Source of the DNA: Microbacterium kunmingense
Lineage (GTDB): Bacteria; Actinomycetota; Actinomycetes; Actinomycetales; Microbacteriaceae
DNA length: 64,000 nucleotides
Direction of reading: 5' to 3'
NCBI RefSeq assembly: GCF_023155745.1
Contig: NZ_JAKNUS010000002.1
Span: forward strand, 372,001-436,000
In this document: in pieces, positions 1,327 through 48,251 of the stretch
Numbering within the stretch: position 1 is the first letter of the stretch
Layout of the letters: every line of letters starts with the position of its first letter
Made by a program: the position numbers and the translations under genes
The notes under the pieces: generated by a model
Databases searched by the model: none
What the model saw: only the letters and a program-made list of their open reading frames with translations
Told to the model about the DNA's origin: nothing

Positions 1327-1428
<102 letters not shown>

Positions 1429-1504
1429 TCAGCGGCTCACCCGCGGAATTACGCCCATCCGAGCCCGATAGAGCACGGCAAAACCCGATATCGGTCGCCG
1501 AACC

Positions 1505-1525
1505 TGTGGGCAAAATGTGGGCAAG
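1505..1525. promoter_or_regulatory. Candidate integrase arm-type site, left arm
   Basis: Two copies of TGTGGGCAA are spaced 11 bp apart (1505-1513 and 1516-1524), about one helical turn. The whole 21-bp stretch matches 47139-47159 in 18 of 21 positions in the same orientation. Both stretches lie about 90 bp inside their att cores. This fits paired arm-type sites for the N-terminal domain of a tyrosine integrase; binding itself is inferred. Confidence 0.55.
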
Positions 1526-1768
1526 TCACCCCGCCCTGCGCGGCTCGCGCGCCGCTCGTCGAACCTCCCGCACGCGCCGCAGACGGTGCGTCAGCATCGG
1601 GTTAAGCTCGAGCGCCTCACGGGTGTCGATCGCCCGATCGAGAAGCTGGTAATAGCGAGCGGGCGGAACCTCGAAGCGGGCACGGATCGCCTCTTCCTTC
1701 CAGCCCGAGTGACGCGGATGCGCGCCCTCGAAAGCGAGGAGCTCGTCGACGGGGATGGGGGCAGACAT
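1526..1768 (-). CDS. DUF3263-family small protein
   Basis: An 80-residue protein starting at the ATG at 1768. Its centre resembles the actinobacterial DUF3263 family: a WKE-A-IR-F motif, then RYYQLLDR, then a basic C-terminal tail with LNPMLTHRLRR. Members are small, probably helix-turn-helix-like proteins of unknown function. It is the leftmost minus-strand prophage gene, divergent from a zinc-ribbon gene 48 bp away. That places it with the accessory genes at the end of the element, not in the structural operon. Confidence 0.7.
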   Translation of the reverse strand: MSAPIPVDELLAFEGAHPRHSGWKEEAIRARFEVPPARYYQLLDRAIDTREALELNPMLTHRLRRVREVRRAAREPRRAG

Positions 1769-1816
1769 GGCATTTAGGATGCCACCGGCCTCCGACATCG
1801 ACGTAGGCTCACGGTC

Positions 1817-1960
1817 ATGATCGATGACCTCGAGCAGCCGCGCTGCCCCACCTGCCACACGGTGATGCGCGACGACCCGCGCGGGTTCGAGTGCGTCACC
1901 TGCGGCACGGTTCACCTCCGCGACGGGGGACGGTTCCAGCGCGTCGTTGACGCCGGGTAA
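1817..1960 (+). CDS. Small zinc-ribbon protein
   Basis: A 47-residue frame with two CxxC pairs (CPTC near residues 10-13 and CVTC near 26-29), the layout of a single zinc ribbon. No function can be assigned. It reads away from the DUF3263 gene and is followed by a second rightward gene 26 bp on, so the two may be co-transcribed. No clear ribosome-binding site precedes the ATG, so a leaderless start is possible. The paired cysteines are the main evidence that it is real. Confidence 0.55.
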   Translation: MIDDLEQPRCPTCHTVMRDDPRGFECVTCGTVHLRDGGRFQRVVDAG

Positions 1961-1986
1961 CATCATCGTTCTCGGCCGGAGGAAGG

Positions 1987-2343
1987 ATGACCCGGCCACC
2001 CGTGACGAAGAACCGCCGCTACGAAGCGCACTACGACAACCTCAACGACCAACGCATCCAGCAAGGCACCAGTCGCCGACGCGCCTGCACCCTCGGGAGC
2101 AACGCCTACGGACCGCAGCCGATCCAGTGGGCTCCGCGCGGGCAGCTTCCGAAAGTGTGGGCGTGGATCTCTTGGGCGGATGATCCCGCCTCCCGCATCC
2201 CCGCCGAGGCGTCCGGCTGGAACGACCGCGTCGTGATTGTCGAGTGGGAAGACGACGGAGGGCGTCGCAGCGTCGTCGTGTGGCGGAACGCGGTCAGCCG
2301 CAGAAACGACAGAAACGCCCCGCGTCCACCCACCCGAGGGTGA
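1987..2343 (+). CDS. Hypothetical accessory prophage protein
   Basis: A 118-residue protein with a good ribosome-binding site (GGAGGAAGG just upstream of the ATG). The N-terminal half is basic; the middle holds a tryptophan-rich WAWISWADD stretch followed by a beta-strand-like VVIVEWEDDGG segment. I do not recognise the family. It is oriented against the structural genes and next to the prophage end, a position typical of genes expressed from the lysogen. The stop codon lies inside a strong hairpin that probably terminates transcription. Confidence 0.65.
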   Translation: MTRPPVTKNRRYEAHYDNLNDQRIQQGTSRRRACTLGSNAYGPQPIQWAPRGQLPKVWAWISWADDPASRIPAEASGWNDRVVIVEWEDDGGRRSVVVWRNAVSRRNDRNAPRPPTRG

Positions 2344-2357
2344 GGGACGCGGGGCGT
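2315..2357. terminator. Strong hairpin at the end of the 118-residue accessory gene
   Basis: Perfect 13-bp arms (2315-2327 and 2345-2357) enclose a 17-nt loop that itself contains a 5-bp stem (CACCC/GGGTG). No clear U tract follows on either strand. It could end the rightward accessory transcript and block read-through from the opposite side. Confidence 0.6.
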
Positions 2358-2431
2358 CGATGTGTATCTATCTGAGGGAGAAGGTGGCTGCCTGTAGGCG
2401 GACGCGTCCTGTCCGCGGTAGTTTCTTCAGC

Positions 2432-2566
2432 GTGGAGCGGACACCATTCGAGAAGCTTGGGGACTGGATCTCATCCCACCGGGCGACGATTGTCCGCCAG
2501 CGGTGGCAGATCGTGGCCGTGACCGTTCTGGCGGTCTACATCCTCGCGTTGGCAATAGCGAACTGA
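2432..2566 (+). CDS. Possible single-pass membrane micro-protein
   Basis: A GTG-initiated frame of 44 residues, with a short charged N-terminus and one hydrophobic helix of about 18 residues (IVAVTVLAVYILALAIA) at the C-terminus. No good ribosome-binding site is present; in-frame extension upstream to an ATG at 2360 is possible. Its 3' end overlaps the end of the polymerase-like gene on the other strand by 31 bp. The membrane helix is the only support. Confidence 0.3.
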   Translation: MERTPFEKLGDWISSHRATIVRQRWQIVAVTVLAVYILALAIAN

Positions 2567-3897
2567 GGCGCTGTGCCCGCCCTGGGGGAGGCGAGAATCT
2601 GCGCGTTCAGTAGCACCCCGCCAGCGAGAATCAGAAACACCAGATTCTGCGGGTCGCCGATCACCGACGAGTTGTCGCCGAGGCCGTGAACGAAAGCCCA
2701 AAGGAACGCTGTCCCGGCGAGTGCGAAGCCGAGCCGTTCGTGCTTGGTCGCATTGACCGTTTGAGCCCTGAGCATAATCGTCAACACCACGATCACGAGC
2801 GCGACATTCGCGGTGGCGAACCCGAGGCCACCGTCCAGCCAGGCTTGCAGGAGCCAGTTGTGCACCGGGCGTGACGAGAAACCGAGGACAAATGTCCCCG
2901 CTTCGAGTTCGCGGGTCCAGTTCCCGAACCCGAGGCCGAACACCGGTGATCCGCCGATGGCGTTCAGTGCCGCACCCCACAAGATGAGCCGCGGTGTGAG
3001 GGTGTCGGCCGACGCCTGCACGTACTCATCGGCCGTGCTGAGGAACACCTGCGCACCGACCACGGCGACAACGAGGGCGACGAGAACCGCCCCGATCCGG
3101 CCAGCGGGACGCTGCGACCCAGCGGCGCGGGCCAGGAAGAACGCGAACAGCGGCATGACGATCAGCAACGCAAGACCCGTCTTTGACCCCGTCGCAACGA
3201 TGGCGCCCGCGAGCGGCAGCGCCACCCAGATCGGCCACCGCTTCCGCGCAAGCGCGGCGTACGCGAGATAGGTGACGAGCATGATTCCCATCACGAGCGA
3301 TGCGCGGTTGACGCTGACGAACAGGAATCCGCCGGCGCGCTCGAGCGCCACGACGTTGTTGTATCCCTGCTCGGTAGTGAGCGCCTGGCCAGCGCCCCCG
3401 AGGAACGGACGGCTCAGCCCCGACGCGTAGTAGTTCGCTTCAACGGTGGGAACGAACCGGAACAGCACGGTCGTCGCCGCCTGGGCGAGGGCGACCGGCG
3501 CCATAGCGGCGAGTATCTTCCCGGCTGCGGGGAGCCCGTCGCTCTGGATCATGTTCACGGCGACGACGGTCAACGTTCCGAGCGCGAACCATCGAGCCGC
3601 GGTGATGAACGCCAACGGTCCCGGCTCCGACCACACGGCCGACGCGGCAGCGACCACCGCACCGACCATGAGCACAGTCACGAGGGCCGATAGCCCCCTG
3701 ACCGGCTGTGCAGGTCGGCGTCCACGGAGCAGACCCATCAACCCGCCGACGACCGCGAACACGGGGACGCCGAGAGCAGCGACACCCGAGAACAGGGAGC
3801 TCGCCCAGCCCAGGCCGGTGAGCATCCACGACCGCCTGACGGCGATCCCGATCAGCAGCAGGACCGGGATCGCCGCCAGCAAGACTAGGGTCTCCAC
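2536..3897 (-). CDS. O-antigen polymerase/ligase-like (Wzy_C-type) polytopic membrane protein
   Basis: A 453-residue protein made almost entirely of membrane helices (about 11-12), with one large extracytoplasmic loop near residues 280-345 that contains the LTPRLILWGAAL and RPVHNWLLQ motifs. This is the layout of the Wzy/WaaL superfamily (PF04932), which polymerises or ligates undecaprenyl-linked glycans at the outer face of the membrane. It lies directly after the tailspike, at the far end of the late region. This is the classic place for a lysogenic-conversion gene, so it may alter the surface glycan the phage uses. Substrate and reaction are unknown. Confidence 0.75.
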   Translation of the reverse strand: METLVLLAAIPVLLLIGIAVRRSWMLTGLGWASSLFSGVAALGVPVFAVVGGLMGLLRGRRPAQPVRGLSALVTVLMVGAVVAAASAVWSEPGPLAFITAARWFALGTLTVVAVNMIQSDGLPAAGKILAAMAPVALAQAATTVLFRFVPTVEANYYASGLSRPFLGGAGQALTTEQGYNNVVALERAGGFLFVSVNRASLVMGIMLVTYLAYAALARKRWPIWVALPLAGAIVATGSKTGLALLIVMPLFAFFLARAAGSQRPAGRIGAVLVALVVAVVGAQVFLSTADEYVQASADTLTPRLILWGAALNAIGGSPVFGLGFGNWTRELEAGTFVLGFSSRPVHNWLLQAWLDGGLGFATANVALVIVVLTIMLRAQTVNATKHERLGFALAGTAFLWAFVHGLGDNSSVIGDPQNLVFLILAGGVLLNAQILASPRAGTAPQFAIANARM

Positions 3898-3923
3898 CCC
3901 TGCATCTTGCCACGCGCGGTGCT

Positions 3924-6032
3924 CTACGCGACGCCCACCAGCAGGGGGACGCGGTTCATCGACGGTGTGAGGTTCGCGCCCGACGGTGCCGGGTTCGGGG
4001 CGGGATGCGCCGAGACCGACACGCTCCGGTAGTAGAACCCGGCTTGCAGGGAGGACGCGGTGCCGCTCAGACCCGCGAACACCGCGGTGACGTTGTCGCA
4101 GGACAGCGCGAGGAAGTCACCCGGCTCCACGTCGACCGCGGCACCGAGCGAAACCTCCGCGTACCCGACCGCGGGACACGCAACCGCGCCAGACGTCGCA
4201 GCGCGGGCCCCGGGCACCAGCGCACCCCCAGGCCCGCCCGCGCCACGGTAGACGGCGACGCTGATGTTCCCGTTCGACACCATCACCTCGAGAGCGATCT
4301 TCGAGATACGCCCGCCCTCCGTCACAGCGGCGAACGCGATCAGGTTGGACGTCGGCCACGTCTGATTCGTGACGACAGCCGCCCCACGGTCGAAGCCGCG
4401 GAGCGCTAGTTGAGACACGGCCTTCCCCGACGCGATCTCACTCCCCGACAGGTCTCCGACAATCGCGCCCGAGATCCGCTTCGGGGAAACACCGATCGCG
4501 CGAAGCTTCCCCGACAGGCGGATGTTGAGTGCGCCAGCACCGCGGAACCCGTCGCCAACGATTGTCAGATCGCCGCCGTACGTGGTGCCCGTCCCGTCGA
4601 GGTTGGAACCCGCGAACACGAGTTCACCGGAGCCCTCGATACGTCCGGTCTGAACGTCGAGGACGATGTCGGTTGCCTGCTCAATCACCGCGAGCCCGCG
4701 GCCTGAGTAGACGGTTGCCTCGGGCGCCACGATCCGCATCCCGGAGGAGGCGGCGCAAGCAAGGAAGGCGACCCCGCGGCCCGTGTAAGAGGGATCGATC
4801 ACGCGGAAGCGCTTGTCGGGACCGTATTGACCGTTCCCGAACTGCCACCCCGAGGAGAAGGATCGTTCGTTAACGACAGTGTCACGCTTCGAGTAACAGT
4901 CCACGGCGCCGTGACCGTGGGTCTGGAAAGCCCCGAAGTAGGTGTTGTGCGCCGTCGCGTCGACCGAGCCGCACCGCACCGCCTGAACATGCGTTACGTG
5001 GTGGCGGGCGCCGCGCGACTCTCCTCCCACAACCTTTGAATCGGTGGACCGAATGAACCGCACAAGGTGTCCACAGCCTGACGTTGCGGGACGGAATGGG
5101 TCTACGCCGTTGACGTTGATCTCGGCATTCGCGGAGTCCCACACCTTCGCGGCGACGCCCTGCCACCCGATCACGGTGACGTCATCCACACGTGCGTCGA
5201 CCGTGTAACGGAAGCTTAGGAGGTCGGCGTGGCTGCCGTAGATGCTGTTCGCTGTGACCGGGTCGTTCCCCGGGTTCGTGTCTCGGATGGTCCCGTTAGA
5301 AATGCGGGGGGAGGTGATCACGTTCAGTTTCACGAGCTGCGGGCTCACAGTCATACCCCACGGTGCTGGCGCGGCGAGGGTCACCGTGGACGCTCCGATG
5401 GCGACGATGGTTGTGAGGAACCTCTGACCGGTGGAGAACCAGGCGCCCGTGTCCCACTTGAGCAGTTCGGTCGAGTCTCGGATCTGCACCCAGTCACCGA
5501 CAGCGAGTCCGCTGACGCTGTTCACCGACACGGTGAAGTCGCCCTCTGTCACCGAGGCGGTGATCGTCTTGAACGCGCCTTCCGATCCCGCGAACCCGAA
5601 CAGGGGGGCCTCCGTGGATGAGCCCGTCCGGGTGCGGGTGATGACGGTTGAGCCGTTCAGGTCGAAGTGAAGCGCCTTATTGATCGTGATCGGGTCGATG
5701 CGGTAACGCCCCGCGCGGTCGAACAGGATCGTCGCCCCCGCCGGGGCCGCGTCTACTAGAGCTTGCAGTGCCACGGTGTCATTTGTGCCCGAGCCGCTTG
5801 CGTCGTTGCCCACCCAGTTCCCGACGAGTCCGTTCTGCCAAACGGGGATAACGGCGGCGTTGCGACTAGCAAACGCGGCAGAAAGGGCCTCTTTCGCCGG
5901 CCCGTTCTGAGTGACCGCGTCCGCGATCGCCTGCTGCGTCGGAACGGTGTTCGGACCTGCCGGGCCGACGGGACCCGCGGGACCAACCGGACCTGCCGGG
6001 CCGCGAACGCTTCCGATGAGAACCTTGCTCAC
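3924..6032 (-). CDS. Tailspike/tail fibre with collagen-like neck and pectate-lyase-type beta-helix
   Basis: 702 residues from a GTG at 6032, chosen because GGAGG lies 8 nt upstream and GTGA overlaps the stop of the preceding gene. Residues about 10-27 are a Gly-X-Y collagen-like run. Residues about 70-500 resemble the Pectate_lyase_3/right-handed beta-helix fold, opening with a segment on valid 'ALVDAAPAGATILFDRAGRY' lines and continuing with many short beta repeats. The C-terminal 150 residues look like a separate beta-rich head. It should be the receptor-binding or polysaccharide-degrading fibre. Whether it has enzyme activity cannot be read from sequence. Confidence 0.82.
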   Translation of the reverse strand: MSKVLIGSVRGPAGPVGPAGPVGPAGPNTVPTQQAIADAVTQNGPAKEALSAAFASRNAAVIPVWQNGLVGNWVGNDASGSGTNDTVALQALVDAAPAGATILFDRAGRYRIDPITINKALHFDLNGSTVITRTRTGSSTEAPLFGFAGSEGAFKTITASVTEGDFTVSVNSVSGLAVGDWVQIRDSTELLKWDTGAWFSTGQRFLTTIVAIGASTVTLAAPAPWGMTVSPQLVKLNVITSPRISNGTIRDTNPGNDPVTANSIYGSHADLLSFRYTVDARVDDVTVIGWQGVAAKVWDSANAEINVNGVDPFRPATSGCGHLVRFIRSTDSKVVGGESRGARHHVTHVQAVRCGSVDATAHNTYFGAFQTHGHGAVDCYSKRDTVVNERSFSSGWQFGNGQYGPDKRFRVIDPSYTGRGVAFLACAASSGMRIVAPEATVYSGRGLAVIEQATDIVLDVQTGRIEGSGELVFAGSNLDGTGTTYGGDLTIVGDGFRGAGALNIRLSGKLRAIGVSPKRISGAIVGDLSGSEIASGKAVSQLALRGFDRGAAVVTNQTWPTSNLIAFAAVTEGGRISKIALEVMVSNGNISVAVYRGAGGPGGALVPGARAATSGAVACPAVGYAEVSLGAAVDVEPGDFLALSCDNVTAVFAGLSGTASSLQAGFYYRSVSVSAHPAPNPAPSGANLTPSMNRVPLLVGVA

Positions 6033-6460
6033 TGCTCGTACCTCCACACGTTTCCTGTGTCACTGTCAAATCCGAGATCCCCGTTCACGGCGGTCGGCGG
6101 GAAGTCCAGACCTCCCGTGAGATCCCACCAGTAGGGGTTGGCGCCGCCCTCACCGCCGCCGCGGTTGAAAAGGAGCTCGCTGTACGACATCGTCTGGACG
6201 TCGGGGACGGACAGCGTGAAGCGAGCCACATTCTCGCCGTCGAGATCCTGCTCGAGCTCGAGGTACACGCCTTCCGGCGTTGCGGGAAGCGACCATGCGC
6301 CCGACGCGACAGTAGGAATGCCGTCGCGAACGTTGGCGGTGCTGGCGGCCTGGGTCACGTGGCCGGCTCCAGTATCGAAGGGCCGGGATGCGACGACGCG
6401 GAGAATCCCGTTCGCCGGCCTCCCCGCGGAATCGAGAATCGGACCTGTGATCGTAGGCAT
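6029..6460 (-). CDS. Minor tail / fibre-associated protein
   Basis: A 143-residue protein that starts with a PTITGPILDSAGRPA strand, like the first beta-domain of many actinophage tail accessory proteins. It ends in a GDLGFDSDTGNVWRYE motif typical of fibre junction segments that announce a downstream fibre. It overlaps the tailspike start by 4 bp and follows the 401-residue tail protein after 5 bp. The role is inferred from position: likely an adaptor between tail tip and spike. Confidence 0.6.
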   Translation of the reverse strand: MPTITGPILDSAGRPANGILRVVASRPFDTGAGHVTQAASTANVRDGIPTVASGAWSLPATPEGVYLELEQDLDGENVARFTLSVPDVQTMSYSELLFNRGGGEGGANPYWWDLTGGLDFPPTAVNGDLGFDSDTGNVWRYEQ

Positions 6461-6465
6461 CCGGC

Positions 6466-7671
6466 CTACCCCCTGTTCGTTTCGTCAATGCGGCCCTGCA
6501 GGGCGCGCAGCTGGTTGGAGAGCCACTGGCGGTCGCTCGAGGGAACGGGGTAGCCGCCAGCGACGCGCTCGGGCGCGCACTGCAGCGTGACGTCGCCCTC
6601 GGCGTCGAACGAGATCCGGACGATGCGGACGCGGTAGATGCCGGCGGGGACGCGGGCGGTCGCGGCAACCTTGATCTTGGCCCAGTCCCCCGGCCAGTAG
6701 GTTCCGAGCTTCGGGTCCTCGTCGCGCGAGACCTTGAGGGTGAAGGTCTCGGTGAACGCGGAGTAGCGGACAACGGCCTCGTCGACGTACGCCTGCAAGG
6801 TCTCTGCACGGAGGACGCTGTTGCGGTTCTCGACGGTCTCCATCATCGGGAAGCCGGCGTCCAGCAGCGCGGTCGAGGACGCCTTCGCCTCGAGGCGGAT
6901 CTGTGTCTCGTCGTTCGTCGCGCCGACGCCCCACGCGTGCGTGGCGAGATCGCGGCCGTCGCGGTCGAGGTCCGAGATGTAGGCGTTCGGTCCGGGCGCC
7001 GACACGTCCCAGTAGTGGTCGACGCCGCCCTGCGTGAGATCGGGGTCGCCGGTGAGCAGATCCCAGCGGACGTGGCGCGGGCCGTCGAGCTTCGGGCGGA
7101 AGGCGATGTCGGGACCGTCCTCGACCTCCGTGAGGTTCGTGAGGGCCTCGGCAACCCACATGAGATCCGCGCCGGGGTACTCCCGTTCGTTGGTGCCGGC
7201 AAAGTCGGGCTCGTAGTCGATCGGGATGCCGGCGGCCGGCCAGGCACAGGCCTGCTCGACGAGCCGCTTCGCGATCGTGCGGAGCGAAGTGTTGGTCCAC
7301 TTCGAGGTGACGTTCGAGGGAAGCTGCGCGGCCGTGAGGACGGGGAGCACCTTGCGCTTGGCGAAGTACTCCCACGCGCCGGCGGCGGTGAGCGTCGACG
7401 AGTAGGGGAAGGCGAACGGGTCGCCCTGGATCTGGCCGGCGGCGAGGAGGACGCCGTTCTCGACCCAGCCGATGAAGTCGCGCTGCGGGAGCAGCTGGTT
7501 GGGGATGTCGAGGGCGACGTCGGTGGCCGGATCCACGTACGGCAGCTGCAGCTGCGCCCGCAGGGTCTCGGGGGCGTTGAGCGTGAGCTCCACGCCGCAC
7601 GAGAGCGGGACCAGCTTGCGCAGGGTGATCTCTCCGGAGAGGAATCGCCCGCCCACGAGGTATCCGGCCAC
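6466..7671 (-). CDS. Minor tail protein (baseplate-type)
   Basis: 401 residues from a GTG preceded by AGGGAG. The N-terminal third (VELTLNAPETLRAQLQLPY) and the middle (a long alpha/beta stretch with TSKWTNTSLRTIAKRLVEQA) resemble siphophage minor tail proteins that follow the distal-tail gene. It lies between the lysis group and the tailspike. No catalytic motif is visible. I call it structural with moderate certainty, from size, repeat-free beta-rich composition and neighbours. Confidence 0.62.
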   Translation of the reverse strand: MAGYLVGGRFLSGEITLRKLVPLSCGVELTLNAPETLRAQLQLPYVDPATDVALDIPNQLLPQRDFIGWVENGVLLAAGQIQGDPFAFPYSSTLTAAGAWEYFAKRKVLPVLTAAQLPSNVTSKWTNTSLRTIAKRLVEQACAWPAAGIPIDYEPDFAGTNEREYPGADLMWVAEALTNLTEVEDGPDIAFRPKLDGPRHVRWDLLTGDPDLTQGGVDHYWDVSAPGPNAYISDLDRDGRDLATHAWGVGATNDETQIRLEAKASSTALLDAGFPMMETVENRNSVLRAETLQAYVDEAVVRYSAFTETFTLKVSRDEDPKLGTYWPGDWAKIKVAATARVPAGIYRVRIVRISFDAEGDVTLQCAPERVAGGYPVPSSDRQWLSNQLRALQGRIDETNRG

Positions 7672-7688
7672 CGGCGTTCTCCCTTCTG

Positions 7689-8207
7689 TCAGCCGAGCGC
7701 GCGGCGGATCTCGGTCGCGGCTGCCGCGGCGTCGACTCCGCTGTTGCCGGCGATGACCGTGATGGTGGCCACGCGGCCGCTGCCGGCCTCTCCTGCGTCG
7801 ATCGGGGCCCGGGTGGGGTCAGCGGGCAGGGTGGCCAGGATGAGGCGCAGGAGCGAGAGCCCAGCGGCGATGAGGGACGCCTGCAGGACGGTGGACCAGT
7901 CGACGTCGGTCAGGAACGTCGCAGGGGCGATGCCGGCGGCAAGGGCCTGGAAGAACGTCTTGACGACGCGCTCCACGGCGGCGAGCCACCAGGGCAGGTT
8001 CACGCCTTCCACCTCGGGGAGGCCGAACAGCGACGTCGCGAGCGAGGCGATGAAGCCGACCGCGGCCGCGGACAGCATCGCGAGCCACGGGACGTCGGCG
8101 ACGAGCGAGCCGCCGACGTAGGGGATGGCGATCGCGACGGCGGTGTAGAGGCCGCGCAGCGCGGCGTCCTTCCACCAGCTCGCGTTCGCGAGGTTGGACA
8201 GGTGCAT
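7689..8207 (-). CDS. Holin (r1t-like)
   Basis: A 172-residue protein with an ATG 6 nt after AGGAGG. The N-terminus (ASWWKDAALRGLYTAVAIAIPY) has the WWKDA and ALRG motifs of the phage r1t holin family. Three or four hydrophobic segments follow (about residues 20-40, 45-62, 85-105 and 110-128), with a soluble C-terminus. Holins accumulate in the membrane and set lysis timing. It is the last gene of a compact lysis group that starts with the endolysin. Confidence 0.78.
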   Translation of the reverse strand: MHLSNLANASWWKDAALRGLYTAVAIAIPYVGGSLVADVPWLAMLSAAAVGFIASLATSLFGLPEVEGVNLPWWLAAVERVVKTFFQALAAGIAPATFLTDVDWSTVLQASLIAAGLSLLRLILATLPADPTRAPIDAGEAGSGRVATITVIAGNSGVDAAAAATEIRRALG

Positions 8208-8221
8208 GGTGACCTCCTCAG

Positions 8222-8548
8222 TCACGTGGGGTTGATGGTGTCCTCGAGGCCGTCCGGGAGGGCGTCGGGGCTGATGCCGGCCATGCGAAGGCGGAAGGCG
8301 AGAAGGCCGGCGTACTCCTGCCAGGCGATGCGCCGGCGGCGTTCGTCGTCCGCGCGATCGCGTTCGTCGTCGGCGCGCTTGATAGCAGCGTCGCGCTGGC
8401 CGATGATGTCGTTCTTGCGGTTGGTCTCCCGGGTGGAGACACCGCGGCGGACCTTGGAAACGATGTCGGCGATCTCCCTGGCGAACGCGCCTAGTCCGCC
8501 TGCGCCGAGGACCGCGACGATGATGGTGACGAAGTTGACGTTCTCCAC
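8222..8548 (-). CDS. Small membrane protein with coiled-coil tail (lysis accessory)
   Basis: A 108-residue protein from a GTG 5 nt after AGGAG. One membrane helix (about residues 5-24, rich in Val, Ala and Gly) precedes a strongly charged helix (about 30-75) with many Arg, Asp and Glu, probably a coiled coil. One membrane pass plus a cytoplasmic charged helix is common for antiholins and second holins next to r1t-type holins. That role is inferred from position. Confidence 0.6.
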   Translation of the reverse strand: MENVNFVTIIVAVLGAGGLGAFAREIADIVSKVRRGVSTRETNRKNDIIGQRDAAIKRADDERDRADDERRRRIAWQEYAGLLAFRLRMAGISPDALPDGLEDTINPT

Positions 8549-8550
8549 GC

Positions 8551-9042
8551 CTACTCCTCTCGCGGAGCGACGTTGCCCGTTCGCCTCCGTAGCGCTTCCG
8601 CGACCCGATCAGCGAAGCCGTGCACGTTCGGGTCCGTGCCGAAGATCTGCAGCTCGATGTAGCGCCGGAACATCTGGATGAGCGCGTAGAACACGAGCGT
8701 CGTCGCGACACCGGCGGTGACCGATGTGAAGAGCGTGCCGCCGAGCACCACGAAGTAGATCGCGGCGCCGGCGATCGCGGCGACGTCGGCCGGTGGCTCG
8801 AGGATCCAGATGCGGCTGATGCGCCCGACCATGCCGAGCCCGCCGCCGACGAGAAGGAAGCCCGCCCAGAGCGGGACGAGCCACTCGGCGCCCGCGAGCT
8901 CGCGCTGCACGCTGTCAGGCGTCCAGAAGAGCGCGTAGCAGCCGCCGACGAAGATGATGAAGTAGGCGACGATGTCGATGATCCGGATGATCGCCTCGAG
9001 CACGCGCCGCTTCTCCTGCGGGACCGCGTAACGTTCGACCAT
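8551..9042 (-). CDS. Four-helix membrane protein of the lysis group
   Basis: 163 residues from an ATG whose A is the last base of the upstream stop (TGATG). Four hydrophobic segments are visible (about residues 14-36, 46-66, 80-100 and 103-122), followed by a cytoplasmic tail with RRYIELQIFGTDPN. Similar multi-pass proteins sit beside holins in many actinobacteriophages. A direct role in lysis or superinfection exclusion is possible but unproven. Confidence 0.62.
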   Translation of the reverse strand: MVERYAVPQEKRRVLEAIIRIIDIVAYFIIFVGGCYALFWTPDSVQRELAGAEWLVPLWAGFLLVGGGLGMVGRISRIWILEPPADVAAIAGAAIYFVVLGGTLFTSVTAGVATTLVFYALIQMFRRYIELQIFGTDPNVHGFADRVAEALRRRTGNVAPREE

Positions 9043-9194
9043 CAGCGCCCTCCCGTCAGCAACGGCAGCGACCAGGTGAGCTCCCAGATCAGCAGCGGCA
9101 CCATCGCGAGGAGCAGGACGCTCGGTGGCCAGGGGCCGCGCCACCACGAGGTGTGGGGACGCGGCCCCGCGTGGCGCGGACCCTGGGAGCGCAT
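9042..9194 (-). CDS. 50-residue single-pass membrane protein of the lysis group
   Basis: The start codon at 9194 shares a base with the endolysin stop (TGATG), and its own stop shares a base with the next start. The N-terminal 22 residues are basic and rich in Arg, Pro and Trp; a hydrophobic helix (PPSVLLLAMVPLLIWELTW) fills the C-terminal half. The coupled start and stop at both ends are the best evidence that this very short gene is translated. A pinholin-like or accessory lysis role is inferred. Confidence 0.55.
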   Translation of the reverse strand: MRSQGPRHAGPRPHTSWWRGPWPPSVLLLAMVPLLIWELTWSLPLLTGGR

Positions 9195-10180
9195 CAGAGC
9201 GCCTTGTAGTTCTCGGCCTCGGCGCGAGCTGCGGCGGCCTTCATGTTGGGGCCCCACAGGTCGTCGTTGTCCGTGTAACCCCACTTTGCACGGAGCCACG
9301 CAGCGAGCGATCCGCCGTGGTTCTGGTCGAGGAAGCGCTGCAGGCCGGCCTGCGAGCCGCCGCCCCACTTGTTGTCCATCCAGGTCGACTGGGCCTGGCC
9401 CTTGCCGTAGCCGTAGAGGTGCGCGATCTTCTGCAGACCGTTCACCCACTGCAGCTCGGCGAGGTCGGCGACGGTGGCTCGGTGATAGGCGGGGTTGGGC
9501 TTCGGGGTCGTTTGCGCGACCCACTCGGCGTAGCGCTTCTCGTGGCCGGCCTGGGTCTTCGGGCCCCAGGCGTTGTCGATTTCGCCGTCGTACCAGCCGC
9601 GGCCCTTGAGGTACTGCTGGTAGCGGCCGACCGCGGCGCGGTAGAGCGGGCCGGCGAGGCCGTCGACGACGAGCTTCTCGCCCTGCGCGGCGTTGAGGAA
9701 GTTCTGCTCGTTCGCGACCTTCTGGGAGAAGGCGATCGTGATGTCGTTGTCGGCGCCGACCTGTCGGGCGAAGTCGAGCGTGTTGCCGAAGGTGTCGGCG
9801 TGGCCGGGCATGAGGGTGACGTGCACGTGCGCGCCGACGCCCCAGTCCTTGCCGTTTGCGGAGGCGCCCGAGTAGCCGACGACGTCGCCGCGGCGGACCT
9901 TCTGGCCCGAGTTGACGGTGATGCGCGACAGGTGGAGGTAGCGGACCGACTGGCCGTCGTTGAGGCGGATCTTGACGACGCGGCCCATCGCGCCGGACGC
10001 GCTGGTCTTGACGTACTCGATGTAGCCGTCTTCGGGGGCGCGGAGGGTCGAACCGTAGGCGATGCCGTAGTCGGTGCCGGGCTCCTGGGACGGTGGCCGG
10101 CGGTTCTTGTGGTCCTGCCAGCTCGAGCTGACGTAGTTGCTGGTCGCGGGCAGCTGGTAGCCGCCCTTCACTTCGGGCAT
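9194..10180 (-). CDS. Endolysin: M23 peptidase domain with C-terminal wall-binding repeats
   Basis: 328 residues. An LytM/M23 fold spans residues about 30-135 with D37 (GTDYG), H83 (YLHLS) and H118/H120 (AHVHV), matching the metal and catalytic positions of the family. The usual first histidine of the HxGxD motif is a glutamate here (E33). The C-terminal half (about 165-328) holds two related segments, each with a WGPKTQ or WGPNMK motif like peptidoglycan-binding repeats. It should cleave peptide cross-bridges in the host wall at lysis. No signal peptide is seen, so it needs the holin. The ribosome-binding site is AAAGGA. Confidence 0.85.
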   Translation of the reverse strand: MPEVKGGYQLPATSNYVSSSWQDHKNRRPPSQEPGTDYGIAYGSTLRAPEDGYIEYVKTSASGAMGRVVKIRLNDGQSVRYLHLSRITVNSGQKVRRGDVVGYSGASANGKDWGVGAHVHVTLMPGHADTFGNTLDFARQVGADNDITIAFSQKVANEQNFLNAAQGEKLVVDGLAGPLYRAAVGRYQQYLKGRGWYDGEIDNAWGPKTQAGHEKRYAEWVAQTTPKPNPAYHRATVADLAELQWVNGLQKIAHLYGYGKGQAQSTWMDNKWGGGSQAGLQRFLDQNHGGSLAAWLRAKWGYTDNDDLWGPNMKAAAARAEAENYKAL

Positions 10181-10202
10181 TTCGGTGTCCTTTCATGGCG
10201 AA

Positions 10203-10224
10203 GCCCCCGACGGGCGCCGGGGGC
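10203..10224. terminator. Hairpin between tail gene and endolysin
   Basis: GCCCCCG (10203-10209) and CGGGGGC (10218-10224) form a 7-bp G/C stem with an 8-nt loop. It could attenuate leftward transcription into the lysis group. It lacks a U tract. Confidence 0.45.
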
Positions 10225-10242
10225 GGTCGTGCTGTCTGCGGG

Positions 10243-11070
10243 TCAGCGGACGGCGCGCCAGGCGCCGTTCTGCTTCACGTAGGGGCGGGCGCGGCGCCAG
10301 ACGCCGTTGACCTTGATCCAGGGCGTCGCTTCGCGCCAGGTGCCGCCGACCTTGATGCGGCCGCCGGCGTCCGTCGTGAGCGCGATGCTCGCGGACGGGC
10401 TGTTGCCCACGTTGCTGCGGGCGTAGACGTAGACGTGATAGGTCGTGCCGGGCTTGAGCTGCGGAGCGCCGGCGACGGCGCCGCCCTGCGGGTCTGTGTA
10501 GCCCTGCGAGTTGAGGTCGCGCCAGACGAGCGGGTTGTTCGCGTTGTTGATCTCGTACCAGTCGGCGGTGTACCCCTGCGGCGAGGATCCGCGCCAGTCG
10601 GCGGGGCCGTCGTAGCGGACGCCGGCGCTGATCGGCGACACGTTCTCGACGCGCAGGTTGCGTGGGGCCGTCGGGGGCTTCGGGATGCGGGGGGCGTCGA
10701 CCCAGGCCTGCCCGGATCCGCCTTCGCCGATGTTCGAGTGCGGGACTTTGATGTAGGCGTCGCTCGCGAAGCCGGGGCGGAAGCCCTCGCCGTCGTGGCC
10801 GTGCCACGTCGACCCTGACAGGACGACGCGGTTCTGACCGGCGGTGCTCTGCGGGATGGTGAAGGTGCCGTAGTAATTGACACCGCCGATCGACGCCCAG
10901 ACCTCACAGGTGCTGTTCGTCCACGATCCCCAGCCGGCAGCGTCGATGAGCTGCACGTTCCAGTCGAACCGGGAGCGGTTGCCGGGCCAGTCCTGGACGC
11001 CCGAGTACCAGATGTCGATGCGCGCGCGGTAGTCGCGCGCGCCGTTGAGCTGTCCCTCGGATACGGCCAT
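10243..11070 (-). CDS. Minor tail protein with fibronectin-III domain and C-terminal Trp-Arg repeats
   Basis: 275 residues. Residues about 1-130 form a beta-rich domain (IWYSGVQDWPGNRS). Residues about 138-232 match a fibronectin type III domain (PTAPRNLRVENVS to TYHVYVYARSNVG). The last 40 residues hold three 13-residue units of the pattern P-W/Y-I/V-K-x-N/G-G-x-W-R, ending at the C-terminus. Fn3 domains on virion surfaces are thought to bind carbohydrate. The gene lies between the distal tail genes and the endolysin, so it is probably displayed at the tail tip. Confidence 0.72.
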   Translation of the reverse strand: MAVSEGQLNGARDYRARIDIWYSGVQDWPGNRSRFDWNVQLIDAAGWGSWTNSTCEVWASIGGVNYYGTFTIPQSTAGQNRVVLSGSTWHGHDGEGFRPGFASDAYIKVPHSNIGEGGSGQAWVDAPRIPKPPTAPRNLRVENVSPISAGVRYDGPADWRGSSPQGYTADWYEINNANNPLVWRDLNSQGYTDPQGGAVAGAPQLKPGTTYHVYVYARSNVGNSPSASIALTTDAGGRIKVGGTWREATPWIKVNGVWRRARPYVKQNGAWRAVR

Positions 11071-11083
11071 GTCGACCCCCTAC

Positions 11084-11761
11084 TCAGAGCGGCTGGAAGT
11101 ACACGTCGCCGTCGCGGCCGAGCGTGTTCGCCGGCGCGCCGGATCCGCTGTGGGTGGTGGGGATGCCGAGGGCGATGCGGGCGTCGCCGGGGCTGGTGGA
11201 GCCGGTGCCGCCTTGTGCGACCGTGACGACGCCGACGTTGAGCCCGGACAGCGGTGCGATGTTGGTGAACGGCTTGCCGGCCTGGGTGTTGGTCGCGCCG
11301 GCAGCGATCTCCTTGCGTGCGAGCTCGAAGGCGCCGGCGGGGAGTGCTGGGGGCAGCGGGGAGGCTGCGGGGTCTCCCGACACGACGTCGATGATGAACT
11401 CGGTGTCGACGGCGGCACCGTCGATCGGCGGGTCGGGCTGCTTCGCGTAGATCCGGTCGATGCGCGGGTTGACGCCGTCGGCGGGATCCGTCGGCACGGT
11501 GACGCTCGAGGGCATCCCGACGAGGTAGGCGCCGCCGGACGCGGTCCGCACGAGAACCAGGCCGCCGCCGCTGACGGAGTACTCCATCGACGCCGGCGCA
11601 CCGGCGACGACGAAGTGATCGGCGCCCATGCGGCCAGGTGTGGCCACGCCGGGCGCGGACTGCTTGAGCAGGACCGCGAGCGCTCGGCGGAAGCCGATGC
11701 TCGTCGTCCCGTCGCCGTCGTCATTCAGGTCGATCGCCAGTCCGGCGGTCACGGTCACCAT
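11084..11761 (-). CDS. Minor tail / fibre-like protein
   Basis: 225 residues starting at an ATG that shares a base with the upstream stop (TGATG). A beta-rich body (ALAVLLKQSAPGV, then YLVGMPSSVTVP) is followed near residues 185-200 by a GGTGSTSPGDARIALG motif. This is the common phage-fibre motif placed just before a terminal knob. It continues the distal tail operon and is probably part of the tail tip. Confidence 0.68.
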   Translation of the reverse strand: MVTVTAGLAIDLNDDGDGTTSIGFRRALAVLLKQSAPGVATPGRMGADHFVVAGAPASMEYSVSGGGLVLVRTASGGAYLVGMPSSVTVPTDPADGVNPRIDRIYAKQPDPPIDGAAVDTEFIIDVVSGDPAASPLPPALPAGAFELARKEIAAGATNTQAGKPFTNIAPLSGLNVGVVTVAQGGTGSTSPGDARIALGIPTTHSGSGAPANTLGRDGDVYFQPL

Positions 11762-12621
11762 CAGAGCCACGCTCCTTCCGAGTAGTCGATCGCCAGCTGC
11801 GAGCCCGGCTGCGGGTCTTCGGGGCTGAACAGGTAGCCGCGGGTCTCGCCTGGCCGGATCGGGACCCAGTCGGCGCGCAGCAGGTTGTGGGACACGTCGG
11901 CGCCGGCGAGGTGTGCGCGGCCGCCGGCGTAGGGCGTGATCGTGAGCTCCTGACCTCGGCCGATCGCGGCGTCGTACTCGATGACGCTGGACTCCGACGT
12001 GATCGCGAACCGTGGGATCGGCCCGCGGACGGTGAAGCGCTCGGGCACCAGGTCGGCGGTGCCCTGGTTGTGGATGACGAAGACACCGGGGAACAGCACT
12101 CCCCCGGACGTGCCGAACGACACGGCGCCGTCGACGAGGGGGAACTGCAGGCCGCCGGACGGTTCGATCGCGGCGTCCATCTCGATGCGGGCCTTGGGTC
12201 CGAACTTGCGCGGATCCGCGGCCCAGATGGGGATCTCGAACTCGGTGAAGGTCTCGTCGAGGTCGCGGACCTTGATCTGTCCGCGGATCTTCGCGTTGCG
12301 CAGCGACAACCACTGACCGCCGACGAACGCCCGGAAGCCGAGATCCTTCTTCTTGACGAGCGACGCGAGCCACGGCCGAACGACTCGGTCTGCCCAGGCA
12401 CCGGACGAGGCCTCGCAGAAGCCGCGCACGACGACGCGTCGCGGCTCGAGCAGGATCTCGCTCGGGTCGAAGGCACCATCCTCCCCGGGGATGAGGTTCT
12501 CGTCGAACCGCGTCCCCGGGGAGTCGTAGAAGCCCTCGAGCTCAGTGAGCCACCATGCGCCGGGGCTGCCCGGCTCGATGTGGAGCCGGCGCCCGTCGAT
12601 CTCGACCATCAGCGCGTCCAT
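11761..12621 (-). CDS. Distal tail (Dit-like) protein
   Basis: 286 residues. The gene directly after the tape measure in siphophages normally encodes the distal tail hub, and the N-terminal DGRRLHIEPG to FYDSPGTRFDENLIPG segment fits that family. The ATG at 12621 was chosen because GGGAG lies 5 nt upstream; a second in-frame ATG at 12609 would give a TGATG junction with the tape measure stop. It should attach the tail tube to tip and fibre proteins. Confidence 0.72.
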   Translation of the reverse strand: MDALMVEIDGRRLHIEPGSPGAWWLTELEGFYDSPGTRFDENLIPGEDGAFDPSEILLEPRRVVVRGFCEASSGAWADRVVRPWLASLVKKKDLGFRAFVGGQWLSLRNAKIRGQIKVRDLDETFTEFEIPIWAADPRKFGPKARIEMDAAIEPSGGLQFPLVDGAVSFGTSGGVLFPGVFVIHNQGTADLVPERFTVRGPIPRFAITSESSVIEYDAAIGRGQELTITPYAGGRAHLAGADVSHNLLRADWVPIRPGETRGYLFSPEDPQPGSQLAIDYSEGAWL

Positions 12622-44148: not shown

Positions 44149-44384
44149 GACTGCTCCCTCGTGGCGTGACGCTTCGACTGCACCCAGGCCCGCACGTCGG
44201 CTTCGAGGTAGACGACCTTGCGAGGGGTGGGGCGCGAGTACGCGGGGCCCGTGTTGTTCGACCGCATGTCTTCGAGGTCGCGGGGCGTCAGGACCGGCAC
44301 CAGCTCGCAGACCTGCTCCGGCGAAAGGAACACCGGCGCAGCGGCGGCCGGACGGATCCTGGTGACGTTCGCGGGGGCGCTCAT
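44145..44384 (-). CDS. Excisionase-like helix-turn-helix protein
   Basis: 79 residues. The centre (FLSPEQVCELVPVLTPRDLEDMRS, in part) and PRKVVYLEADVRAWVQSK resemble the AlpA/Xis-type winged helix, which bends att DNA during excision. It follows the Cro-like gene by ATGA overlap and lies across the control region from the integrase. That suits expression only upon induction. Confidence 0.65.
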   Translation of the reverse strand: MSAPANVTRIRPAAAAPVFLSPEQVCELVPVLTPRDLEDMRSNNTGPAYSRPTPRKVVYLEADVRAWVQSKRHATREQS

Positions 44385-44662
44385 GACGCGACCGGGACCA
44401 GCTCTTCGGCGTCGGCCCTCTCGCTGACGACGACGACCTCGCCCATCGCCAGGCCGAACGCTTGAGCGATCCCGACGACCGTGCGGAGGCTCGGCTCGTT
44501 GCCCTTCTTCAGGTCGGCGAGCGTCGCCCGGCTGATCCCGATGAGGCGCGCGAAGGCGTCGTCGCTGCGGATGCCGGCGGTGTCCTTCAGTCGGTCCAGG
44601 AGGCCCGGGCGGATCTTGATCGCGGTGGGCTGACTCACCAACTGCTCATCTGTCCGATTCAT
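44381..44662 (-). CDS. Cro-like XRE helix-turn-helix protein
   Basis: 93 residues. The HTH is at about residues 33-64 (DAFARLIGISRATLADLKKG, in part). The gene is divergent from the repressor across 88 bp. It is the first gene of the leftward early operon, where Cro sits in lambda-like phages. A minus-strand TTGACA at 44692-44697 with a 17-bp spacer would start the transcript about at its ATG. Confidence 0.75.
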   Translation of the reverse strand: MNRTDEQLVSQPTAIKIRPGLLDRLKDTAGIRSDDAFARLIGISRATLADLKKGNEPSLRTVVGIAQAFGLAMGEVVVVSERADAEELVPVAS

Positions 44663-44691
44663 GCGTCAACTGTGCGCCGCGTTCGGGGAAG

Positions 44692-44751
44692 TGTCAAGTC
44701 AGAGGAACAAATGACTTGTGTGTCGGACGGTTGTGTCTCATGATTGAGACA
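44692..44751. promoter_or_regulatory. Divergent control region with two inverted repeats
   Basis: Inverted repeat 1: CAAGTCA (44695-44701)/TGACTTG (44712-44718), overlapping a minus-strand TTGACA. Inverted repeat 2: TGTCTCA (44734-44740)/TGAGACA (44745-44751), overlapping a plus-strand -10-like CATGAT (44739-44744) and the repressor start. A TTGTGT at 44716-44721 lies 17 bp before that -10. These are the best operator candidates for repressor and Cro. The repressor transcript would be leaderless. Confidence 0.6.
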
Positions 44752-45209
44752 TGAACTTGAGCATGAAGTGGCTGGACGACGTCCGCGGGACGGACTCGAT
44801 CCGAGAGGTCGCTCGTCGCGTAGGCATGAACCAGGGCACCCTCAATCGCCAGGTGAACCTCGACCAGCTCACGTGGGAGGCGGTGCGAGACATCTCCCGC
44901 GCGTACGGCCGCCCCGTGCTCGCCGACCTTGTGCAGCTCGGCCACCTGAACGCGAGCGACCTTGGCGTGAGCGACATCGACACGGCGCTCCGCTCGGCGA
45001 CGGAGGAAGAACTGATCGTCGAGGTGGGACGCAGGCTCGGAGTCTCCGGCTCGGTGCTCTTCGATGCGCCGATCAGCGCGGCCGTCGCTACCGCGAGCAA
45101 CGTCGTCGGGCACGGCCGCTTCCAGGCCGCCGATGTCGGAGGTTCGGAGGAAGATCTGGAAGCTGTTGCGCGGCCGGCGGATCCGGAGAGCGGGGAGGAC
45201 CGAGAGTGA
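44751..45209 (+). CDS. Prophage repressor-like HTH protein
   Basis: 152 residues. A helix-turn-helix at about residues 15-50 (SIREVARRVGMNQGTLNRQV, then WEAVRDISRAYG) is followed by an acidic C-terminal part without a LexA-type peptidase. The gene is divergent from the Cro-like gene and overlaps the ImmA-like gene by GTGA. That pairing resembles ImmR/ImmA of ICEBs1-type elements, in which the protease cleaves the repressor. Its start sits on the inverted repeat, so autoregulation is likely. Confidence 0.75.
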   Translation: MNLSMKWLDDVRGTDSIREVARRVGMNQGTLNRQVNLDQLTWEAVRDISRAYGRPVLADLVQLGHLNASDLGVSDIDTALRSATEEELIVEVGRRLGVSGSVLFDAPISAAVATASNVVGHGRFQAADVGGSEEDLEAVARPADPESGEDRE

Positions 45210-45685
45210 CGATCGACACGCACCTCGAGGCGATCGCCGCCATGATCGGCGTCCGCATCGAGTACGCACTGCTCCCGCCCGATCGCGACGGTGAGTACCG
45301 CTACAAGCACAACGTCATCCGGCTGCGACGCGGGATGTCCGCGAGGCTGCACCGCTCCGTGCTGGCGCACGAGCTGGCGCACGCGGTCTTCGGCGATGTG
45401 CCGAGCAAGTTCGGCCCAGTGCACGCGAAGCAGGAGCGTCGGGCTGAGGAGTGGGCGGCGCTCCGGCTGATTGACCGGGACGAGTACCGTCGCGCGGAGG
45501 CCCTCCACGAGGGTCACGCGGGGGCGATCGCGCAGGATCTCGGCGTAGTCCGCAGCATCGTCGAGACGTATCGGTCGCTGCTTCTCCGCATCGAGGTCGA
45601 GCCCGTCGATGAGCCCAACCTCGTCTACACGAAGTCGAAGATGGGCGCCGGCAACTGGCTGCACCGCGACGAGGTCGCCTCGTGA
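45206..45685 (+). CDS. ImmA/IrrE-type metalloprotease
   Basis: 159 residues from a GTG with GGAGG upstream. The zincin motif HELAH is at residues 55-59, in SVLAHELAHAVFGD. The family cleaves phage or ICE repressors when activated by host stress signals. Overlap with the repressor gene makes that repressor the likely substrate. This offers an induction route that does not need repressor self-cleavage. Confidence 0.85.
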   Translation: MTIDTHLEAIAAMIGVRIEYALLPPDRDGEYRYKHNVIRLRRGMSARLHRSVLAHELAHAVFGDVPSKFGPVHAKQERRAEEWAALRLIDRDEYRRAEALHEGHAGAIAQDLGVVRSIVETYRSLLLRIEVEPVDEPNLVYTKSKMGAGNWLHRDEVAS

Positions 45686-45736: not shown

Positions 45737-46849
45737 ATGGCTGGGTCGATCACGCCCTATGACAGCGCTCAGGGGAAGCGGTACCGCGTCCGCTACCGCA
45801 AGCCCGACGGGCAGCAGACGGACAAGCGCGGCTTCAAGACGAAACGTGAGGCCGAGACGTACCTCGCGGAGGTGACCGTCTCGAAGGCGACCGGCGGCTA
45901 CCTCGATCCCTCGCTCGGCAAGAAGACCGTGACGATGTTCGGCGAGCAGTGGAAGAGCGGCCGCCTGGCTCGCCTGAAGCCGTCGAGTCGGAACACGATG
46001 GAGACGACCTGGCGCGTGCACGTCGAGCCGAAGTGGGGCGCTCGAGGCGTCGCCAGCATCCGGGCATCCGAGGTCGAGGATTGGGTGAGCTCGCTGATGG
46101 TCACTACCGACGACCGGAAGGCCCTTGGCGCGCAGACGGTTCGACGATGCGTGTTCGTCCTGTCGAGCGTCCTCGCGATCGCCGAGCGCGACGGGATCAT
46201 CCGCTCGTCGCCGACGAAGGGCGTCCCGCTGCCGGCGAAGAAGTCGAAGCCGAAGCGATACCTCACGCACGAGCAGGTCGAGCAGCTCGCGGCCGCCGCG
46301 CCCGGGCACGAGACGCTGATGCTGCTGCTCGCGTACGCCGGCCTCCGGTGGGGCGAGGTGTCGGCGCTCCGGGTGCGGCACCTCGACATGCTCCGTCGAC
46401 GGATGCTGATCGAAGAGAACGCGGTGCTCGTGAAGGGCGTCTACGAGATCGGGACGCCGAAGCACGGTGAGTCACGCGAGGTGCCCATCCCGCTCTTCCT
46501 CGTGAAGCCGATCGCGAAGCTCTGCGAGGGAAAGGGCCGCGACGGGTTCGTGTTCTCCGGCGGGGCCTCGCCAATGACGTACCCGCACCGCACCTCGGGA
46601 TGGTTCGTCAAGGCCGTGACGGCGTGCCAGGCCGTCGACACGAGCTTCCCGACGATCACCCCGCACGACCTGCGGCACACGGCGGCGTCGCTAGCTATCT
46701 CTGCCGGCGCGAACGTGAAAGCCGTGCAGCGAATGCTTGGGCACGCCTCCGCGGCCATGACGCTCGACGTCTACGCCGACCTGTTCGACGACGACCTCGA
46801 AGCCGTCGCGGTGGCGATGAGCGAGGCGCGGACGGCAGCCGTCGGGTAG
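45737..46849 (+). CDS. Tyrosine site-specific integrase
   Basis: 370 residues with an N-terminal arm-binding domain (about 1-60), SAM-like core-binding domain (about 65-160) and catalytic domain. Catalytic residues are R204 (AGLRWGE), K242, H310 and R313 (HDLRH), H336 (LGH) and Y346 (DVYADLF). It should recombine attP with the nrdF 3' end. The gene lies next to attR, the usual arrangement. No strong ribosome-binding site precedes the ATG. Confidence 0.95.
   Translation: MAGSITPYDSAQGKRYRVRYRKPDGQQTDKRGFKTKREAETYLAEVTVSKATGGYLDPSLGKKTVTMFGEQWKSGRLARLKPSSRNTMETTWRVHVEPKWGARGVASIRASEVEDWVSSLMVTTDDRKALGAQTVRRCVFVLSSVLAIAERDGIIRSSPTKGVPLPAKKSKPKRYLTHEQVEQLAAAAPGHETLMLLLAYAGLRWGEVSALRVRHLDMLRRRMLIEENAVLVKGVYEIGTPKHGESREVPIPLFLVKPIAKLCEGKGRDGFVFSGGASPMTYPHRTSGWFVKAVTACQAVDTSFPTITPHDLRHTAASLAISAGANVKAVQRMLGHASAAMTLDVYADLFDDDLEAVAVAMSEARTAAVG

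Positions 46850-47246: not shown

Positions 47247-48251
<1,005 letters not shown>

Follow-up and report, generated by a model that had tools for sequence, protein, structure and literature searches.

The closest described counterparts of the gene considered here are polymerases of temperate phages that infect Gram-negative bacteria. Excerpts of one study (PMC4815439) describe Wzy-beta of the temperate Pseudomonas phage D3 as having the Wzy_C motif and essential Arg and His residues, report that D3 infection (Wzy-beta together with Iap) leads to resistance to superinfection in Pseudomonas, and place a Wzy_C protein in the seroconverting Salmonella phage epsilon15. D3 acts on the O antigen of a Gram-negative lipopolysaccharide and has both Iap, which inhibits the polymerase of the host, and an O-acetylase, as set out in passages of a second paper (PMC12373910). 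Epsilon15, compared here through the literature only, also has a Gram-negative host and carries an inhibitor. An excerpt on phage Sf6 states that its O-acetylating enzyme Oac, an AT3 protein, gives immunity to Sf6 (PMC9558356). A Gram-positive case is TarP of Staphylococcus aureus prophages, which alters a surface glycan and hence the phage receptor; according to the excerpted text, podophages were unable to infect bacteria lysogenised by tarP phages (PMC9650247). The suggestion of the sequence-only reading that a prophage surface-glycan switch had not been described in Gram-positive bacteria is thus too broad. TarP differs from the protein described below in being a glycosyltransferase of wall teichoic acid, not a polymerase, and in acting on another polymer.

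Our subject is a wzy gene in a prophage of Microbacterium kunmingense, analysed within a 64,000-nucleotide stretch of that genome (the window). Microbacterium, of the Actinomycetota, is Gram-positive and has no lipopolysaccharide. To our knowledge the receptors of actinobacterial phages are mostly unknown; a single coat-building enzyme beside a spike points to exopolysaccharide (EPS) as a receptor in Microbacterium and makes a one-gene test possible. The open PMC literature gave no Gram-positive prophage Wzy among the matches listed and nothing joining lysogenic conversion, O-antigen polymerase and Actinobacteria. The excerpted parts of prophage papers on Curtobacterium (PMC9862828), Clavibacter (PMC11856565) and Microbacterium vB_MoxS-R1 (PMC9030533) contain no prophage Wzy. 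Starting from the family, fold and conserved residues of the protein, its location in a prophage, a nearest relative in an EPS locus and a slot that recurrently holds glycan or defence genes, we assign a probability of about 0.6 to the reading that the prophage captured its Wzy from an EPS locus, and that this protein alters the host coat and excludes related phages. If this is true, Gram-positive bacteria would join the hosts of D3 and epsilon15 as a setting for polymerase-based lysogenic conversion. In the Microbacterium prophage we identified neither an Iap-like inhibitor of the host polymerase nor an O-acetylase, both of which D3 has.

The prophage and its left end

The prophage is about 46 kb long, apparently complete, and is located at the 3′ end of nrdF. 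Its left boundary, attL (1327..1411), is an exact 85-bp repeat of the nrdF 3′ end; attR (47247..47331) is the 3′ end of an intact gene on the minus strand (47247-48224), which we read as nrdF from its sequence. Between the repeats there are family matches to terminase, portal, head protease, tape measure, a DnaB-like helicase and holin. A minor tail protein lies among the late genes (6466..7671, minus strand; phrog_1885, 4e-54), and a tyrosine integrase is encoded near attR (45737..46849, plus strand; phrog_1, 2.7e-66). The immunity region (44381..45685) comprises a repressor-like HTH gene (44381-44638, minus strand; phrog_9103), an ORF assigned by position only (44751-45209, plus strand) and an ImmA/IrrE-type peptidase (45206-45685, plus strand; PF06114). 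The wzy gene (2536..3897, minus strand) sits inside the exact att repeats together with the phage genes and the integrase. Its earlier placement at the end of the late region of a prophage is borne out by the 85-bp repeats and the phage genes, and it lies near att. Membership of a host EPS cluster was considered and is ruled out by the phage-gene flanks and the att sites.

Two further prophage genes, both on the minus strand, combine a methyltransferase match with another domain, a helicase at 32269-34851 and a ParB-like match at 25717-27009. The late region is matched by 82 phage records, 78 of which are Microbacterium phages, each over a small part and mostly in the tape measure gene. Prophages of Microbacterium repeatedly use the nrdF 3′ end as attachment site (genomes G000, G072, G062, G111 and G086), and four sister integrases at this site are 62-83% identical to the integrase here.

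All identified late genes are on the minus strand, and wzy is the last co-oriented one. The last virion gene before it (3924..6047, minus strand) encodes a tail-spike-like protein with a collagen-like GPAGP stretch, and 26 bp separate its stop from the wzy start. In tblastn, 57% of the spike query aligns with the Gordonia phage Petra ‘minor tail protein’ (E 1e-52) and likewise 57% with the Turuncu ‘tail spike protein’ (E 1e-43). An IMG/VR search with the spike found nothing. The sequence-only reading had called a beta-helix tailspike directly before wzy: the tail-spike-like character and the adjacency hold, while the Pfam and PHROG matches are weak and a single-sequence structure model of part of the protein reaches a pLDDT of 31.7, so that the beta-helix itself is not borne out.

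Past wzy toward attL are small genes and then a DUF3263 gene. A small att-end protein (1987..2343, plus strand), which served as anchor A2, and the DUF3263 protein (1526..1768, minus strand; PF11662 at 3.9e-22 in the longer ORF 1526-1999) are each conserved in several sister prophages, at their att ends. A possible 44-residue single-TM protein (2432..2566, plus strand) is convergent with wzy and overlaps its 3′ end; it has no Pfam match and may not be a gene. It could be an Iap-like inhibitor, or nothing. Small TM ORFs occur in sister slots too (L081 6880-7044 and L087 4608-4757), and they are present in the slots of G072 and G188, both of which are without wzy.

Cargo between the late genes and att

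The slot between the late genes and att was surveyed in 20 hand-chosen Microbacterium prophage left ends, in two rounds and with borders set by hand. Round one covered 12 ends, the window included, anchored on tail genes or the integrase; these are the ends that suggested the slot idea. An integrase match at E ≤ 1e-60 was present in 139 genomes, of which the seven closest besides the window's own were followed, plus tail-matched ones. In round two, 40 places were fetched from the best-scoring matches and eight were kept by eye as prophage ends. L100, a duplicate of one of these, was counted together with it. The other 31 were dropped: three had no called anchor, and beside the rest no tail or lysis genes were seen, although overlooked prophages may be among them. 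Left out before the count of 20 were L092 and L093 (right ends), L094 (short contig) and L097 and L098 (left end not found), and a tail-protein match at a contig end in G108 is outside the survey. DUF3263 alone was unfit as an anchor because 292 of the 295 genus genomes carry it, in most of them presumably as a chromosomal copy. The A2 family occurs in 161/295 genomes of the genus, also away from tail genes. We note that the left ends L099 and L100 (G011, contig C1, at ~43.4 and ~87.2 kb) share one gene layout and are separated by 43.9 kb, either as tandem prophages or through assembly duplication.

A surface-glycan-type enzyme was found in the slot at 7 of the 20 ends (5/12 in round one and 2/8 in round two) and none at the other 13. 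In round one these are the Wzy of the window, one AT3 acyltransferase each in G061, G086 and G241 and, in G062, a GDSL esterase; in round two G261 added a second GDSL esterase and G028 a polysaccharide pyruvyl transferase. By kind there is thus one Wzy, three AT3, two GDSL esterases and one pyruvyl transferase. The G028 pyruvyl transferase adjoins a spike-like gene on the same strand, as wzy does. Among slot ORFs of at least 150 residues, 7/21 are of surface-glycan type. For the five of 21 that are Wzy, AT3 or pyruvyl transferase the binomial p is 1.2e-8, a figure that gives scale only, as the families were picked after the first ends and 3,300 genes were assumed; the GDSL genes are outside it, their background not having been counted. 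The window's own genome has six AT3 places and two pyruvyl-transferase places, so genes of these two kinds are rare in the background. The slot GDSL esterases could be virion esterases; tail-fibre PHROGs are among the matches of the one at L122. For the esterases of the slot there are precedents: excerpts report SGNH esterases as common in Klebsiella prophage receptor-binding proteins (PMC13123978) and GDSL/SGNH-like deacetylase candidates in Curtobacterium prophages (PMC9862828).

The slot of G111 (L095 11051-13143), also at the nrdF site, contains no glycan-type enzyme and holds the two genes of PD-Lambda-5 (A, E 4.6e-168; B, E 4.1e-112), a defence system that a selection in E. coli had uncovered, according to an excerpt of PMC9519451. 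PADLOC gave no clear defence match for ten further slot ORFs; two weak ones, at E 0.00036 or worse, were not counted.

Isolated phages have comparable cargo. In the Arthrobacter phage MrSmee an annotated O-acetyltransferase, gp26, lies past the last annotated tail gene toward the integrase module, with one small hypothetical gene between, and is 42.7% identical to the AT3 of the G061 prophage. It is an AT3 acyltransferase, not a Wzy, with its function given by annotation only, but it already occupies this slot in an isolated phage. The Halomonas phage YPHTV-1 carries an ‘O-antigen ligase’ (PF04932, 85.0 bits) and an AT3 O-acetyltransferase among its tail genes. Its host is a Halomonas, and its match to the window Wzy covers only 97 columns at 25% identity.

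Because the slot recurrently holds glycan-type enzymes or a defence pair, surface-glycan conversion with superinfection exclusion is the role we favour. The earlier idea of a surface-glycan switch is in part sustained: sister prophages fill the slot with glycan-type enzymes or defence, and a second actinobacterial element has a Wzy. More tentatively, and at somewhat less than even odds, temperate phages of Microbacteriaceae and Micrococcaceae may share a swappable ‘exclusion slot’ between spike and att, whose contents would be in turn a polysaccharide polymerase, an acyltransferase, an esterase, a pyruvyl transferase and an intracellular defence pair; the present gene would then be the first polymerase-based conversion in a Gram-positive lysogen. 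On this proposal the neighbouring spike and coat-changing enzyme would be exchanged together, each phage shutting the receptor that its relatives use. The slot marks a place to look for more glycan-modifying or anti-phage genes.

The strand and spacing of wzy also suggest a different use. The gene is on the late-gene strand behind the 26-bp gap, and a sigma-70 consensus scan of 1400-4300 gave 0 matches vs 0.3 expected, which is weak evidence; wzy may thus be read only in lysis. Terminator-like sites in the same scan number three vs 1.4 expected. Wzy would then be made with the spike and remodel the dying cell's surface, keeping progeny from binding debris or a second phage from entering, and it would be silent in the lysogen. 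Cargo on the late strand is also seen in G028, G241, MrSmee and YPHTV-1, cases collected by hand. In G061, G062, G086, G261 and an Arthrobacter element (L147), likewise collected by hand, the cargo however lies on the other strand from the late genes, suggesting a separate promoter in these cases, and coat remodelling minutes before lysis seems slow. We regard a late lytic role as the main rival reading and as rather unlikely.

Family, fold and probable origin of the Wzy protein

The wzy ORF begins with GTG, encodes 453 residues of a Wzy_C (PF04932) polymerase-like, polytopic membrane protein and has a codon-position GC of 0.68/0.50/0.83; the coordinates given by the sequence-only reading are exact. 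The PF04932 match is 45.3 bits (E 1e-11), above the curated cut-off of 31.7 bits. The oligosaccharide repeat unit polymerase model TIGR04370 scores 18.8 bits, under its cut-off of 40, and PHROGs and PADLOC gave no useful match. An AlphaFold2 model built from 17 sequences has a mean pLDDT of 75.8 and a pTM of 0.79, with the first ~60 residues poor. Foldseek returned the O-antigen ligase WaaL (7TPG) as the top match (E 4.5e-4) and the sole one below 0.001. In VIA the model superposes on 7TPG with Z 22.8 and rmsd 4.6 over 349 residues, followed by FtsW (Z 14.5) and RodA (Z 12.4); absence of a structural family from this list is not taken as exclusion. The HMM search and the predicted WaaL fold together confirm the earlier identification of a Wzy_C-type polytopic protein. 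The sequence profile of the protein also reaches 7TPG (E 1.7e-10), and in the alignment R303 falls on chain R265 and His346-Asn347 on a His-Asn pair. R303, H346, N347 and G357 are invariant in both alignments (A1, 12 rows; A3, 17 rows), giving the conserved Arg and the His-containing HX(9-10)G of PF04932. The segment H346-G357 reads HX10G, the motif named for polymerases in an excerpt of PMC4815439.

The protein shares with WaaL the fold and the aligned Arg and His-Asn, with an identity of 12%. WaaL is a ligase that joins glycan to lipid A-core. As WaaL is the best structural match and PF04932 is common to Wzy and WaaL, the product might be a WaaL-like ligase, or another wall-polymer enzyme of the same fold, that moves finished glycan to another acceptor. 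Further, 15/38 homologue locus rows (some loci are listed twice) have no EPS marker of the chosen set, so part of the wider family may act otherwise. Several markers of that scan came from loci under test; it was repeated with four Pfam-matched markers from the host's own locus, and the neighbours of the near relatives were scanned too. The fold alone does not separate ligase from polymerase. The nearest relatives (L023, L025 and L139), however, have PF02397 and Wzx-type PF01943 genes as neighbours, a setting expected for a polymerase, and Gram-positive bacteria have no lipid A-core acceptor. A ligase or other wall-polymer enzyme is thus quite improbable, and the product looks like an exopolysaccharide-type Wzy polymerase.

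Homologues at E ≤ 1e-5 were found in 16/295 genomes of the genus, the window's own included. The nearest, 47% identical, is in a chromosomal EPS locus of G047 (L023) and is joined to the window Wzy at 100/100 in the tree. It directly adjoins a PF01943 gene, and glycosyltransferases, a PF02397 initial transferase, an AT3 and a Ugd-like match are nearby. The loci of two further relatives, L025 and L139, have PF02397-like and PF01943 genes, and in L026 PF02397-like and Wzx-like matches were obtained by tblastn only. A Wzx/Wzy-pathway setting with initial transferase, Wzx and glycosyltransferases is a feature of the near relatives and does not extend to the family as a whole. An apparent second copy in G047 was rejected: the two matches belong to one repeat of about 11 kb, 99.8% identical, near both ends of its single contig, so one EPS locus appears twice (L023 and L024). 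Since its nearest relative lies beside Wzx in an EPS locus, the best interpretation of the gene is capture of a Wzy polymerase.

A tblastn search of 50,697 phage records gave no phage relative, nor, within the limits of such scans, did IMG/VR pattern scans, so the capture appears rare and perhaps recent. A phage-only Wzy family was also looked for in PHROGs, the phage records and IMG/VR, and none was found. At the level of the order, 10/218 genomes matched: the window's own, one of the same genus and eight of a single genus (g17). The six g17 loci inspected out of eight gave no sign of phage markers (0/6).

The host genome has five PF04932 places, among them the prophage wzy and three others over the cut-off. 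A region of ~37 kb contains a PF02397 initial transferase, a PF13440 Wzx-type gene, PF04932, PF04230 (PS_pyruv_trans), a glycosyltransferase and Ugd. The host's own Wzys are very distant from the prophage Wzy in the tree. As this region has Wzx, a glycosyltransferase and an initial transferase, substrates for a lone phage polymerase are plausible, and the host repeat units may fit it.

Under the conversion and exclusion reading, the phage would have taken a Wzy-type polymerase from the EPS locus of a Microbacterium relative, this being the probable direction of transfer. The host initial transferase, glycosyltransferases and Wzx would make and flip undecaprenyl-pyrophosphate-linked repeat units. 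The prophage Wzy, presumably expressed in the lysogen, would join these on the outer side of the membrane with Arg303 and His346 at its active site. Competition with the host Wzy may then change the linkage or chain length of the surface polysaccharide, and the changed coat would serve less well as a receptor for related phages with spikes that recognise the unaltered polymer.

A second Wzy in an Arthrobacter element

A scan of genome contigs gave 17 loci, one of which is L147 of Arthrobacter sp. zg-Y769. An exact 35-bp repeat, which is the 3′ terminus of a tRNA-Leu gene, flanks the element (5880-12285, ~6.4 kb) on both sides. Its Wzy is 32% identical to the window Wzy over 304 columns, scores 33.7 bits against PF04932 (cut-off 31.7) and is on the strand opposite to the spike. 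The spike-like protein matches, over part of its length, gp24 of Arthrobacter phage Pitbull (E 5e-30) and Microbacterium phage Min1 (E 4e-21), and has the stretch GPAGPNTVPT in common with the window spike. An integrase fragment (PF00589) is also present. In the tree the L147 Wzy is apart from that of the window; its weakly supported partner (85/76) is a Mycobacterium sequence from a locus with glycosyltransferase-like and Wzx-like matches. As the tree does not join them, the two captures look independent.

That the Microbacterium gene is a passive passenger, gained from the host by imprecise recombination near att and without a selected role, would fit the single Wzy among 20 ends and the lack of phage relatives, but is very improbable given an intact ORF with all conserved residues, a slot repeatedly filled by glycan-type enzymes of four kinds and a defence pair, and the open Wzy frame kept in the seemingly decayed Arthrobacter element. 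L147 holds little beyond the Wzy, the phage spike and the integrase fragment, and is either the remnant of a prophage, with its Wzy retained, or a mobile unit of small size.
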